Part shown: positions 4,268 through 8,541 of the stretch, in pieces
Numbering within the stretch: position 1 is the first letter of the stretch
Layout of the letters: each line of letters begins with the position of its first letter
NCBI GenBank assembly: GCA_025453925.1
Contig: JALOPK010000168.1
Span: 1-8,546, forward strand
Source of the DNA: Candidatus Eiseniibacteriota bacterium
Lineage (GTDB): Bacteria > JAFGKV01
Length of the DNA: 8,546 nt
Reading direction: 5' to 3'
Position numbers and translations under genes: made by a program
The notes under the pieces: generated by a model
Told to the model about the DNA's origin: nothing
Seen by the model: only the letters and a program-made list of their open reading frames with translations
Database searches by the model: none

Positions 4268-5005
4268 TCATGTGATCCACTTCTTCCGGACGTTCCGCAG
4301 GCTGATGAGAAAGAGCACAACGCAGAAGCCAGCCAGGAGCACTAAGTTGAGGCTGACTGGCCTTTGCGCAGTCCCATTGACCGACCCGTGCAAGACGTCG
4401 GCGCCGTAGGTCAACGGCAGAGCATACGACAGCGGGCGCAGGAAGACAGGAAGGTTCGCGATGGGGAAGAACAGCCCGCACAAGAACACCATGGGGAAAC
4501 GGAAGAAGTTCGAGAATGTCTGCGCTTCGAAGACCTCCCTCACCGATACAGCGATGAACAGGCCCAGGAATGTCGAACTGACGGCGATGAGCGCGACAGC
4601 GGCCGCAATCTGCCACCAGATCACTGAACTCAGGTCCACAAAGAACGCCGCCATGAGCATCGGGACGAAGGCGTTGGCCACACCCATCACAATTGCGCCG
4701 GCCGTCTTGGCCAGCATCAGCGCCTCCAGGGGGAGCGGCGCCAGGAGGAGACGCTCGAACGATCGCCCCTTCTTCTCGAACGTAACCGTCACCGCCAGCA
4801 TGGAGGTGGTACCGAAGAGAATCGAGAGCGCCACGACGCCGGGCAGGATCGCGCGGATATCGCCGAACCCGGAGCCCGACTTGATGAAGAACATCGATGT
4901 CCACGCCAGCGGGAAGATGATCCCCCAGCTCAAGTTGGGCGGCTTGAGATAGTACGTGCGCATGTCCTTTTTCAGGATGTTCCAGACTGCGATCCAGGTT
5001 TTCAC
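4268..5005 (-). CDS. ABC-2 type transporter permease
   Basis: 245 aa inner-membrane subunit, the usual length for an ABC-2 (DrrB/NodJ-like) permease. Hydrophobic segments lie at about residues 25-41, 52-75, 99-122, 129-155, 166-190 and 219-236. The cytoplasmic coupling-helix region is FEKKGRSFERLLLAPLPLEA (76-95), and the late family signature is FLCGLFFPIANLP followed by PLSYALPLTYGADVLHGSVN (191-210). The start is GTG at 5005, overlapping the ATPase stop as GTGA (4 nt). GGAGG (5016-5012) stands 6 nt upstream, so translation is probably coupled. It pairs with the upstream ATPase as an exporter. The substrate cannot be read from the sequence; the ArsR-led operon suggests a toxic or thiol-reactive compound, which is inference. 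Confidence 0.9.
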   Translation of the reverse strand: MKTWIAVWNILKKDMRTYYLKPPNLSWGIIFPLAWTSMFFIKSGSGFGDIRAILPGVVALSILFGTTSMLAVTVTFEKKGRSFERLLLAPLPLEALMLAKTAGAIVMGVANAFVPMLMAAFFVDLSSVIWWQIAAAVALIAVSSTFLGLFIAVSVREVFEAQTFSNFFRFPMVFLCGLFFPIANLPVFLRPLSYALPLTYGADVLHGSVNGTAQRPVSLNLVLLAGFCVVLFLISLRNVRKKWIT

Positions 5006-6015
5006 GTGACGCCTCCATCACGCTTACTTTGCTCCTTCTCCTTGCGCATTCGGTCCAGCGCGACACCCGTGATGCAGACAAATACCTCCTCCAGCGAGGG
5101 CCGGATCACGTTGGCTTCAGTCACGTCTACGCCGCGCTCCTCGAAGAAGCGGATCAGCGGCGCGAGCGGCAGTGTGTGCGCGGTATGCGCGCGAAGGGCA
5201 TCGCCGGTCACGGGCTCGAATTCGATCCCGGGGAACGTCTGGCGAAGCGGACCGAGCATTTCGGCCGGATCGCGGCCGAGCGCGAGTTGCACCACACGCC
5301 GGTCCTGCACATCCCTCACGAGATTGGCCAGCGAATCCACCCGGACCAGTCTCCCCTCGACGATGAAGGCGATCCGGCCACAGAGCCGTTCGGCCTCCTC
5401 GATGTAATGCGTCGTCAGGAAGATCGTGGTCCCACCCGCGTTCAGGTCGGCAATGACCCGGCGGATGTGACGTGCACTGGCCACATCGATGCCCGTAGTC
5501 GGCTCGTCAAGAAACAAGATGCGCGGCAAGTGAATGATCCCGGCCGCGATGGTGAGCCTGCGCTTCATGCCCTTGGAGTAGCCTCCGAAGCGACGACGCG
5601 CCGCGTCGGCCAGGCCGACCGTCTCCAGCAGTTCCCGCGCCCGTTTCTCGCGACTTCTCCGGGCCATCCCGTACAGCGCCCCGCAGAAACAGAGATTCTC
5701 GAAGCCGTCAAGCTCGGGCCAGAGGTTGCTTTCGTCCGGGACAACGCCCATGAGATGCTGGGCGGCCTTGGGATTGCGGGAGCAGTCGATTCCGGCAATA
5801 CGAATCACGCCCTGGTCGGGCCGGGCCAGGCCTGTGAGCATGTTGATGGTGGTCGTCTTACCGGCACCATTGGGGCCCAGAAACCCGAAGAACTCCCCTT
5901 CACCTACCTCGAAATCGATGCCCGCGACGGCCTCCACCTCCCCGAACCGTTTGGCCAGGCCTCGAACCTCGACGGCAGCTTCCGCGTGGCTTCGCGGCTC
6001 AGAGGTGCTCGGCAT
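5002..6015 (-). CDS. ABC transporter ATP-binding protein (DrrA-like exporter class)
   Basis: 337 aa, nucleotide-binding domain at about 15-230 followed by the C-terminal extension usual for DrrA/CcmA-like exporters. Visible motifs are Walker A GPNGAGKTT (47-55), signature YSKGMKRRL (146-154), Walker B ILFLDE (166-171), D-loop TTGID (173-177) and switch His203 (LTTHYIEEAE). The Q-loop position reads VVPDESNLWPEL, with Asp94 in place of the usual Gln. The C-terminal region ends with the family motif PSLEEVFVCITG (306-317). The ATG at 6015 is preceded by AAAGG at 4 nt, a modest Shine-Dalgarno, and the start overlaps the previous gene by 17 nt. It would energise export through the permease encoded next. 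All catalytic residues other than the Q-loop Gln are present. Confidence 0.93.
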   Translation of the reverse strand: MPSTSEPRSHAEAAVEVRGLAKRFGEVEAVAGIDFEVGEGEFFGFLGPNGAGKTTTINMLTGLARPDQGVIRIAGIDCSRNPKAAQHLMGVVPDESNLWPELDGFENLCFCGALYGMARRSREKRARELLETVGLADAARRRFGGYSKGMKRRLTIAAGIIHLPRILFLDEPTTGIDVASARHIRRVIADLNAGGTTIFLTTHYIEEAERLCGRIAFIVEGRLVRVDSLANLVRDVQDRRVVQLALGRDPAEMLGPLRQTFPGIEFEPVTGDALRAHTAHTLPLAPLIRFFEERGVDVTEANVIRPSLEEVFVCITGVALDRMRKEKEQSKRDGGVT

Positions 6016-6333: not shown

Positions 6334-6492
6334 TCACGGTTGTGCCCTATGGCTCGCCTTCCTCGTCACACACGGATAGCTCTTCGTGTCGCCGCGGCAC
6401 TTCTCGATCTGCCCGGGAGTGCACTCTTCATGCATGCTCCTCAGGTTCTCCGGCTTCTGGCAGTTCTGCGCCTTCTCGGTGCCGCAGCGCAT
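6334..6492 (-). CDS. 52-aa cysteine-rich protein
   Basis: The open frame extends further upstream, but ATG 6492 has an excellent Shine-Dalgarno, AAAGGAG (6506-6500), at 7 nt, so the real product is 52 aa. Five cysteines lie at 3, 11, 24, 32 and 41 in the pattern C-x7-C-x12-C-x7-C-x8-C, with the core KPENL (13-17) and CTPGQIEKCRGDTKSYPC (24-41). I recall similar small proteins with a C-(S/T)-P-x-Q-I-x-x-C-x-G-D-x-x-x-x-P-C core beside ArsR-type regulators in other bacteria, but know no assigned function. Metal binding or a redox-active role is plausible from the Cys content. It overlaps the ArsR gene by 52 nt in another frame and is probably expressed from the same mRNA. The Arg/Ala-rich tail (44-52) looks unstructured. 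Confidence 0.75.
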   Translation of the reverse strand: MRCGTEKAQNCQKPENLRSMHEECTPGQIEKCRGDTKSYPCVTRKASHRAQP

Positions 6493-6803
6493 TGTGGTGC
6501 TCCTTTCGGGTTCGCACCGGCTCCTTGCTTCGGGTCCAGCAATCGGCCTATTTCCTCTCGCCATGTGGCGAGGGTATCCTCGTTCAAACGGTAGTGGACG
6601 TAGTAGCCGCGCTTCTCGTCCACGACCAGGGCGGCGTCACGCATGACCCGAAGGTGCTGCGACACGGCGCCTTGTGTCACGCCGAGCCGGGCGGCCAGCG
6701 CGTTTACGCACAGTGGGCGCTCCTTGAGGAGCTGCACGATCCCCATGCGCGCGTCGGCCGAAAGGACCTTCATCACTCTCGACAGTTCTCTAGGATCCTT
6801 CAT
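6441..6803 (-). CDS. ArsR/SmtB-family winged-helix repressor
   Basis: 120 aa. ATG 6803 follows AAGG 9 nt upstream. Helix-turn-helix and wing: ERPLCVNALAARLGVTQGAV (28-47), SQHLRVMRDAALV (48-60) and the beta-wing EKRGYYVHYRL (63-73). Dimer helices flank it (about 5-25 and 75-90). In classic arsenic sensors the alpha3 motif is C-V-C-D-L; here it is L-C-V-N-A-L, so only Cys32 of that pair remains. The other Cys, 105, lies in an Arg-rich tail (DPKQ onward) that overlaps the next gene. The inducer is therefore not classical As(III) by sequence; a single Cys could sense oxidants, other metals or a thiol-reactive molecule. As first gene after an operator overlapping its own -10, it is expected to repress itself and the four genes downstream. 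Confidence 0.92.
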   Translation of the reverse strand: MKDPRELSRVMKVLSADARMGIVQLLKERPLCVNALAARLGVTQGAVSQHLRVMRDAALVVDEKRGYYVHYRLNEDTLATWREEIGRLLDPKQGAGANPKGAPQCAAAPRRRRTARSRRT

Positions 6804-6867: not shown

Positions 6868-7195
6868 GCCCTGGCCGGTAGCGATCGAAGGGCGCCGTGC
6901 CTATCCCAGGCTCATCTCTCGGCTGCAAGAACCGCTTCCGTGGTCCTCCACGCCTCACCTCGGGGCCACATCACGCTATCGGGACTTGCGTCCACCACGG
7001 GCAGCATCGAGGGGCGGGCACGAGTCAGTGTAACATGCCTGACGGCGGGGTCGCCCATTAGAGGGCGGGTCAAGGGAAAAAACATCCCTCCCTGAGAAGA
7101 TCGCACTTTCCTCGCGCGACCTTCTCCACTCCCACAGGTAGGTTCGAGTCCCTCGTCGTTCATCGCACCCGTTACATCTCTCAGATGGGGTAGCA
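6868..7195. other. Intergenic region between operon promoter and IS flank
   Basis: I see no supported gene in these 328 nt. The minus-strand open frame from 7196 to 6912 lacks a Shine-Dalgarno and resembles no protein I know. Two small hairpins are present: CGCCC/GGGCG (7052-7067) and AGGGA/TCCCT with an A-rich loop (7073-7089). A tRNA T-arm-like box lies at 7141-7151. The right boundary of the insertion sequence could fall within this stretch. Confidence 0.5.
7141..7151 (+). other. tRNA T-arm-like box (GGTTCGAGTCC)
   Basis: GGTTCGAGTCC fits the tRNA T-loop consensus exactly. Only the two inner T-stem pairs and the outermost pair form; the middle two do not, and no matching acceptor, D or anticodon arm is found upstream. 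It is at most a tRNA fragment or decayed 3' end, and may be chance. Confidence 0.25.
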
Positions 7196-7251
7196 ATCAG
7201 CTTCTGCTGATCCGCACGGCCCTTGGTCCGTCTGGACCCCAGATGATCATC
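7196..7251. repeat. Cluster of three short inverted repeats
   Basis: In 56 nt there are ATCAGC/GCTGAT with a 4-nt loop (7196-7211), GGTCC/GGACC with a 4-nt loop (7225-7238) and the perfect palindrome GATGATCATC (7242-7251). They adjoin the structured RNA candidate and may be its 3' extension or end structures of the insertion sequence. Confidence 0.4.
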
Positions 7252-7257
7252 GGTTCC

Positions 7258-7433
7258 ATGCCGTGACCCAAGTGGTAGGTCAGATCTCCTGGTTGTGTCC
7301 CAACCCTAACGTGGCTCGCGGCATAGGCGAATCAGACTCGATAGACTCGCGCCTCCTTGTTCTGTCGGTGCAGCAGCTCCCAATCAGGGCTGGTGGTTCG
7401 GTCTCCAACCCCAGTGCCGGTTCACTGCTGCAC
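7258..7433 (-). ncRNA. Candidate bridge/seeker guide RNA of the IS110-family element
   Basis: On the minus strand, starting in the last codons of the transposase, the sequence can form in order three elements. First, a perfect 9-bp stem GTGCAGCAG/CTGCTGCAC (7433-7425 with 7376-7368) encloses an internal loop of 10 and 13 nt and a bulged 8-bp hairpin (CTGG-GGTT/AACC-A-CCAG, 7414-7390). Second, a 5-bp stem (7325-7329/7350-7354) has a 20-nt loop containing a 7-bp direct repeat. Third, a 6-bp stem ATGCCG/CGGCAT (7319-7324/7258-7263) closes over hairpins 7291-7305 and 7264-7282. IS110-family recombinases use an RNA from their non-coding end, with internal loops that pair to target and donor DNA; in the IS1111 branch it lies downstream of the gene, as here. 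Ends, guides and transcription are not demonstrated. Confidence 0.45.
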
Positions 7434-8456
7434 TGGAATACCCACAAACAATCGCTGTTCGTCGTATGGCACCTGGTCTCGCATCACGTAGTACGATGCT
7501 CGCGCCAGCTTGTTCGCCAACGCTTTCACCGCCACGATCTCGTTCCGCTCCCTCGCCTTCCGCTGCCAGAATCGCGTCGGCCCCTCATGATACCGCCGCG
7601 CGAAGTGCGCCGCCTCCACATATGCCCACGCCAGGTACTTGTTCCCGTTCTTCTCGTTCCCCTTGCCCTTCTTCTTCCCCGCGCTCCACCGTTCCGCCTT
7701 CACGCACCGGCAGTACGACGAGTAGTTCCGCACCCCCTTGAATCGTCCGATGTCTCCCACCTCCAGCATGATCGTCAGTCCCAGGATCTTCCCGATCCCC
7801 GGCACCGTCAGCAGCAGTCCGAACTCCTCCCGCAGGCGCACGTCCTTCAGTACCTCCCCCTCGATCTCTCGGATCTGCCCACTCAAGAACTGTATCACTG
7901 CCAGGCTCCGTTGCGCCGCACTCCGCAGATGCGGCGCCGGAAAGCTCACGGCCAACTCTTCCTCCGTGAGCCGTTTGATTCGATTCACCGACACCTTCAC
8001 CCCAAGGTTCCGCGCTACCATACCCTGCAGACTCAAGATCTGCGTCGTCCGCTGCCGTACGAACAGCAGCCTCCTCCGCAGCAAGTCCCGCGCCGGCCGC
8101 TCCTCCTTCGGGTAGATGTACCCCGTCGGCAGGATCCCCAACCGCAACATATGCGCCAACCAGAACGAATCCCATCGATCATCCCCATACTTCAATCCTT
8201 CGTACTGCTGGATCGCCGACGGATTCGCCAACCTCACCGGATACCCCTGTGCCTGCAGCCCATCCACCAACCAGTACCAGTTGAATGTAGACTCCACCGC
8301 CACCCCCACCATGCTCTCCTTGTACGGCGCCAGATACCGCTCGATCGCCTCCACCGAGTTCTCTACCTTCTTCCCCACCAGTCGCCTGTCCTCTTCATCA
8401 ATCACCCCCACATAGCTCGAGGTTGAATGCAGATCGATCCCTGCGTAGGTTCTCAC
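7422..8456 (-). CDS. IS110-family transposase (DEDD recombinase)
   Basis: 344 aa from GTG 8456, chosen because AAAGGAGGT (8470-8462) ends 5 nt upstream and the protein then begins MRTYAGIDLHST, as the family does; the longer ATG at 8531 adds 25 unrelated residues. The N-terminal RuvC-like domain (1-150) has Asp8 (GIDLH), Glu55 (VAVEST) and Asp93/Asp96 (DRWD). The C-terminal Transposase_20 domain (about 214-290) has LLLTVPGIGK (214-223), GDIGRFKGVRNYSSY (234-248), the WSAG segment with Ser258 as likely nucleophile, and KNGNKYLAWAYVEAA (269-283). A helical linker joins them. Full-length and undisturbed, so probably active or recent. It excises and inserts the element through RNA-guided recombination in studied relatives. 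Confidence 0.95.
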   Translation of the reverse strand: MRTYAGIDLHSTSSYVGVIDEEDRRLVGKKVENSVEAIERYLAPYKESMVGVAVESTFNWYWLVDGLQAQGYPVRLANPSAIQQYEGLKYGDDRWDSFWLAHMLRLGILPTGYIYPKEERPARDLLRRRLLFVRQRTTQILSLQGMVARNLGVKVSVNRIKRLTEEELAVSFPAPHLRSAAQRSLAVIQFLSGQIREIEGEVLKDVRLREEFGLLLTVPGIGKILGLTIMLEVGDIGRFKGVRNYSSYCRCVKAERWSAGKKKGKGNEKNGNKYLAWAYVEAAHFARRYHEGPTRFWQRKARERNEIVAVKALANKLARASYYVMRDQVPYDEQRLFVGIPVQQ

Positions 8457-8458
8457 CG

Positions 8459-8541
8459 GACACCTCCTTTGTGTACTCCTCGAGTACGATTGTGACAAAT
8501 CCACGATAGAACCCCTCGTCCTATCGCGCAAGGGAGGTGTC
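8459..8541 (-). promoter_or_regulatory. Transposase leader fold that buries the Shine-Dalgarno
   Basis: GACACCTCCCTT (minus strand 8541-8530) is complementary at 11 of 12 positions to AAAGGAGGTGTC (8470-8459), which contains the transposase Shine-Dalgarno. Between these arms lie two further perfect hairpins: CGATAG/CTATCG with an 11-nt loop (8504-8526) and GTACTC/GAGTAC with a 3-nt loop (8473-8487). The result is a closed stem over two hairpins, ending 3 nt before the GTG. Such a leader would keep translation low, above all in transcripts entering from outside. Confidence 0.55.

Follow-up and report, generated by a model that had tools for sequence, protein, structure and literature searches.

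A probable bridge RNA gene in the right end of an IS1111-like element of the IS110 family

The closest described relatives of the locus reported here are the guide RNAs of IS110-family elements. In the IS1111 seekRNA group (ISEc11, ISPa11 and ISKpn4; PMC11187229), the guide RNA lies 3' of the transposase gene, as it does here. Published seekRNAs of this group measure 82–96 nt (154 nt in the long form of ISEc11), whereas the conserved RNA at this locus spans about 270–330 nt and contains an extra stem-loop, SL2. In the portions of the IS621 and IS110 bridge RNA papers drawn on here (PMC11208160, PMC11208158), the RNA occupies the left end of the element; here it occupies the right end. IS110 bridge RNAs were described as a single two-stem unit in the part of a further source used for comparison (PMC12045711), and multi-loop donor regions were noted for many IS1111 orthologues in the corresponding part of PMC11208160. 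The lineage described below is not covered by the sections of the literature compared here.

The window (the whole stretch of DNA analysed, 8,546 nt) contains what is very probably a bridge RNA (seekRNA) gene in the right end of an IS1111-like IS110-family element. An IS110-family transposase with a downstream guide RNA, as in IS1111-like members, had been predicted from the sequence, and both covariation and flank matching supported that assignment.

The transposase and its relatives

7422 to 8456, minus strand: IS110-family DEDD/Ser transposase gene, with a GTG start at 8456 and an AGGAGG ribosome site directly upstream.

The transposase reads as intact and belongs to the IS110 family by the presence of both Pfam domains (PF01548, DEDD RuvC-like, and PF02371) together with the D, E, D, D and serine residues. 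It scored 190.7 bits (cut-off 140) against NF033542, the NCBIfam model named IS110 family RNA-guided transposase. Residues D10, E57, D95, D98 and S260 (numbered on the 346-residue query) were invariant in the transposase alignment and fell at the positions of the IS621/ISCro4 catalytic residues, those published for IS621 being D11, E60, D102, D105 and S241.

A scan of genome contigs recovered 80 transposase relatives, up to 65% identical in amino acid sequence, from Desulfobacterota, Gammaproteobacteria, Planctomycetota and other hosts. Culturable hosts of close relatives include Desulfocicer vacuolatum DSM 3385 (L048) and Desulfosarcina widdelii (L065). Annotated relatives included the ISGsu4 group. 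The suggestion that this is an RNA-programmed recombinase from an undescribed element needs correction, as the kind is already known from NCBIfam and the ISGsu4 group; the nearest relative of the individual element in the scanned collections stands at 65% amino-acid identity. Single-protein pattern searches of viral contigs gave no relatives, either for the transposase or for a distant clade. Three near-identical transposase copies were present in one genome (G065 C1:422453, 427847 and 2851610), two of them 5.4 kb apart. Judged from open reading frames alone, a putative ArsR-like regulator (6441–6803, minus strand) and a putative ABC transporter pair (4268–6015, minus strand) adjoin the element in the window.

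Structure and extent of the RNA

The RNA-encoding strand is the minus strand, and the following structural features were delimited on it.

7368 to 7433, minus strand: SL1, target-binding stem-loop, its 5' arm overlapping the last three transposase codons; covariation in 52 sequences.
7256 to 7329, minus strand: SL2, second stem-loop, with motifs like those of SL1 (TTGG..ACCA, short loop guides); covariation in 53 sequences.
7219 to 7241, minus strand: donor-domain hairpin TGGGGTCC..GGACCAAGGGC, aligned in relatives.
7163 to 7213, minus strand: distal conserved segment GGATCAGC..GCTGATTG..GTAACGGGTGCGA, from the alignment of relatives.

A perfect 9-bp stem pairs 7433–7425 with 7376–7368 and takes in the last three transposase codons (GTG CAG CAG), the stop TGA following at 7424–7422. 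A second stem, ATGCCG/CGGCAT, encloses 7258–7324. The 176-nt segment containing both folded at -70.1 kcal/mol, against an average of -58.5 for 200 dinucleotide shuffles, one of which was as stable (z=-2.75). Fold stability of a single sequence is modest evidence; covariation is decisive.

The region from stop codon to right end was aligned for the window and 62 relatives (58 from genome contigs and 4 from plasmids), several others being cut by contig ends. In SL1 (52 sequences), 87% of cells were paired, double-change cells numbered 169 versus 50 in shuffles, both sides had changed in 13 of 16 pairs, and the covariation score was 0.499 versus 0.202 shuffled. The corresponding values for SL2 (53 sequences) were 92% paired cells, 99 double-change cells versus 23, both-side changes in 11 of 15 pairs, and a score of 0.449 versus 0.175. 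Sliding the partner by one to three columns abolished the signal in both stem-loops, and RNAalifold recovered the outer helices of both unaided. Searches of the region against Rfam gave no match at gathering or permissive thresholds, and ARAGORN reported no tRNA or tmRNA.

The nested stems of the original prediction are therefore present, among them a first stem drawing on the last transposase codons, and alignment of related copies revealed strong compensatory change in both stem-loops. The proposed extent of 7258–7433 proved too short: conserved sequence extends past 7258 as far as 7163 or beyond, and the end of the element lies near 7051.

Guides, targets and element ends

Two loop segments of SL1 were assigned as target guides.

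7407 to 7416, minus strand: right-target guide (RTG, R1), CACTGGGGTT; match to the right flank z=11.7, 0/5000, with signal over about 6 nt.
7384 to 7393, minus strand: left-target guide (LTG, L1), CCAGCCCTGA; match to the left flank z=9.9, 0/5000, with per-position signal.

Across 55 relatives the SL1 5' loop matched the element's own right flank at a mean of 5.67 of 8 positions (3.96 permuted), and across 37 relatives the 3' loop matched the own left flank at a mean of 4.45 of 6 (2.76 permuted); registers were picked after inspection of the alignment, and permuted pairs were scored by the same rule. Swapped-flank controls gave z=0.4 and 1.2. When permutation was restricted to transposase clusters, z was 9.3 for the right guide and 7.1 for the left. 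By position, the guide footprint covered about 5–6 nt to the right of the core and 5 nt to the left. The top-strand guide, R1, lies 5' of the bottom-strand guide, L1, and in relatives the left-target guide is identical in sequence to the left flank plus the TGA core. Individual elements matched their own right flanks (GATCGTTGAC in L036, AGTTTGAGAC in L112 and TTACTGTAGT in L068) or left flanks (GTAAACTGA in L115 and CAAGCCTGA in L086). Both target halves are matched across relatives, and in the window the right half is matched in part: just GGGGT and wobbles of the right guide agree with the own right flank, the left flank lying past the contig end at 8546.

The expectation that the loops would correspond to insertion-flanking DNA was thus borne out, with some shift of the guides themselves. 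One guide had been placed at TGAACCGGCA (7424–7415), which is mostly a conserved, non-varying segment, the actual right-target guide occupying 7416–7407. The other, placed at 7389–7377, overlaps the left-target guide (7393–7384) in part, and the remainder falls outside it.

Many relatives were inserted in sites close to CAAGACC-TGA-CCCC. Nine host genomes contained 24 matches to uninterrupted single-TGA targets, versus 8 for the reversed pattern. Two inverted target copies flank a putative REP-associated tyrosine transposase-like (RAYT-like) gene in G060 (L428 567–1562, assigned by sequence reading), and two target copies form a palindrome in G063. IS621 and ISPa11 are known to target REP sequences. 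A literature search for the target string gave no match. In a sister clade (L128, L037, L130, L153 and L154), right flanks begin with a GTTAGGC-like sequence and the right guides, CGCCTAAC, match it; presumably this flank resembles the integron attC core.

The ends of the element and its donor domain contained the following features.

7242 to 7251, minus strand: right-donor guide (RDG), GATGATCATC; in relatives it is the complement of the sequence that begins the left end (RD-LE z=3.2, 5/5000).
7214 to 7218, minus strand: 51-nt deletion, placed approximately, in which the left-donor guide (..GATGGGTGAC..) is lost; the stretch is present in the G001 and G000:C109 copies.
7051 to 7073, minus strand: right end, with TTGACC (candidate -35 of a circle-junction promoter), the sub-terminal repeat GCCCTCT (7066–7060) and AATGGGCGA.
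7037 to 7050, minus strand: right flank, CCCCGCCGTCAGGC, its boundary set by comparison of relatives.
8459 to 8541, minus strand: left end, incomplete, with inverted repeat GACACCTCCCTTG / CAAAGGAGGTGTC; terminal TGATAATCAT-like bases lie beyond the contig end (8546).

Near-identical and related copies defined the left end as TGATAATCAT plus a sub-terminal repeat and the right end as the inverse repeat plus ATGGGTGAC. The sub-terminal repeats, about 7–9 bp, averaged 7.3 bp within an element versus 3.4 bp permuted (0/1000) and read AGAGGGC/GCCCTCT in the G001 copies. Terminal extensions outside the repeats were about 11 and 9 nt, core included. Stop codon and right end are separated by about 370 nt in the window and mostly by 370–510 nt in relatives. 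L044 and L045 have a tandemly repeated right end (TTTAATGGGTGAC twice, 19 bp apart). The left-end inverted repeat at 8459–8541 could cover the ribosome site of the transposase. With the ends joined through one core, TTGA(C) and GATAAT stood 17 nt apart in 18 of the 41 relatives whose left end was recognised, making TTGAC and GATAAT, about 17 nt apart at the joined ends, a candidate promoter.

The left-donor guide tracked the right element end across relatives (z=8.3), with GAC, GTC and GCC classes. For the right-donor guide (z=3.2), the low variation of the left end keeps the evidence modest, and shared ancestry contributes to both values because permutations ran over all relatives, not within clusters. 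Matching of guides to element ends thus appears in relatives. The donor guides lie outside the originally proposed extent of 7258–7433: the right one is at 7251–7242, and the left one is deleted from the window copy. The deletion may be an assembly error. Because it removes the left-donor guide, the window copy is probably impaired unless RNA is supplied in trans by another copy.

Hairpins at the end of a gene, accompanied by inverted repeats, might serve as a terminator or as transposase DNA sites alone, with no guide function; this would leave the matches of the loops to the element's own flanks and ends unexplained, and we consider it most improbable. In sequence comparisons, RNA structure and the matching of target and donor extend across relatives, as a bridge RNA would predict.

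Two copies in G001, a genus-mate, have both ends, SL2 and the donor domain, lack the transposase and SL1, and occupy cognate target sites. They measure about 430 bp (L018 1990–2418, and L019), and their sites read gaagatc followed by TGATAATCAT.. and tcaaggtt followed by TGATAATCAT.. These copies look like MITE-like, non-autonomous elements, and their two ends and cognate sites suggest mobilisation in trans. A search of the own genome and two relatives had also raised 7047–7358 as a dispersed chromosomal repeat foreign to the transposase, with 7359–7433 as the only element portion. That stretch does occur without a transposase in the two G001 copies, and partially in G000:C109 and G002. Most of the 80 transposase relatives rule the candidate out: 7047–7358 follows the transposase in dozens of them, in many phyla, and its G001 copies bear both element ends in cognate target sites, so that an unrelated repeat is scarcely credible.

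Two loop segments were delimited within SL2.

7302 to 7311, minus strand: SL2 5' loop segment R2, CGTTAGGGTT, weak core-proximal match to the right flank.
7281 to 7289, minus strand: SL2 3' loop segment L2, GGAGATCTG, core-proximal match to the left flank (z=4.3 overall, 3.0 within clusters).

The SL2 loops tracked the target just in the 2–3 nt beside the core, at left positions 3–4 (z=6.1 and 3.2) and right positions 3–5 (z=2.0–3.7). One reading, to which we give somewhat less than an even chance, makes SL2 a further, partial target-reading loop (e.g., a handshake guide, or one that checks the target halves flanking the integrated element), giving three guide modules instead of two. SL2 shares the grammar of SL1 (TTGG..CCA and loop motifs), its signal is confined to core-proximal positions, and the L2 match to the left flank is joined by an R2 match to the right flank (z=2.3 overall, 2.7 within clusters). 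Two modules of this kind also occur in a distant clade (31–33% identity; Alteromonas, Vibrio and Manganitrophus), and in L128 their left guides are almost the same. However, where relatives had the usual CCC flank, R2 matched no better than permuted pairs (z=-0.6), SL1 has been retargeted while SL2 often stayed unchanged (L035, L036 and L068), and part of the signal could come from shared ancestry and the shared core.

Alternatively, SL2 may be a structural scaffold alone, its likeness to SL1 stemming from an ancient duplication and shared protein contacts, a reading at slightly less than even odds. The SL2 stem is the best-kept helix, and the loop is near GGGGTTGG in several elements whose targets differ; yet core-proximal loop bases still track the left flank within transposase clusters. 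A three-module bridge RNA, in which SL2 joins the target and donor loops and also reads the target beside the core, perhaps as a handshake or flank-checking guide, is offered as a tentative model with the balance against it. The extra stem-loop raises a concrete question: the job of a third loop in an RNA-guided recombinase.

Proposed mechanism and comparison with described systems

In the scheme we propose, transcription, protein binding, a circular form and strand exchange are steps that we infer. The RNA would be transcribed on the minus strand from a promoter that probably arises when both ends join in the circular form, with transcription crossing the end of the transposase gene and continuing into the right end. 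SL1 would bind the target, its 5' loop pairing with the right half on the top strand and its 3' loop with the left half on the bottom strand, with the TGA core between them. The distal domain would bind the joined element ends through the right-donor and left-donor guides. The transposase would then exchange strands, leaving the element between the target halves with a core at each end. Dozens of elements, every one having a target, an RNA and ends of its own, provide a natural-variation test of the guide assignment, and their differing natural targets on a kept scaffold are useful when choosing programmable recombinases.

Further features shared with the IS1111 group (PMC11187229) were the top-strand guide preceding the bottom-strand guide; sub-terminal inverted repeats in the 7–17 bp range of that group (the window's left repeat lies beyond the contig); a short left end and a long right end, with a long non-coding region downstream of tnp; and a candidate circle-junction promoter. 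Terminal extensions are 7 and 3 bp in that group and about 11 and 9 nt here, core counted, and the element is for that reason called IS1111-like, not a strict IS1111 member.

Target and donor loops, left and right guides sharing a core, and a DEDD plus serine recombinase were common to this lineage (the window copy lacking the left-donor guide) and the IS621/IS110 bridge RNA systems as presented in the portions compared (PMC11208160, PMC11208158). Unlike those systems, the donor guides here sit in a larger multi-hairpin domain and the guide order is reversed. SL2 and the transposase-less copies in cognate sites go beyond the text of the published descriptions compared, figures aside.

The ISGsu4 group, annotated in Paraburkholderia plasmids, shares the RNA layout and is about 47% identical in amino acid sequence, with other targets (e.g., GTCAACGATC on the right in L036). 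The tigRNAs of TIGR-Tas, in the part of PMC12045711 considered, likewise have a loop with paired spacers, which a Nop-like domain reads; they differ in being 36-nt RNAs encoded in arrays, without recombination.
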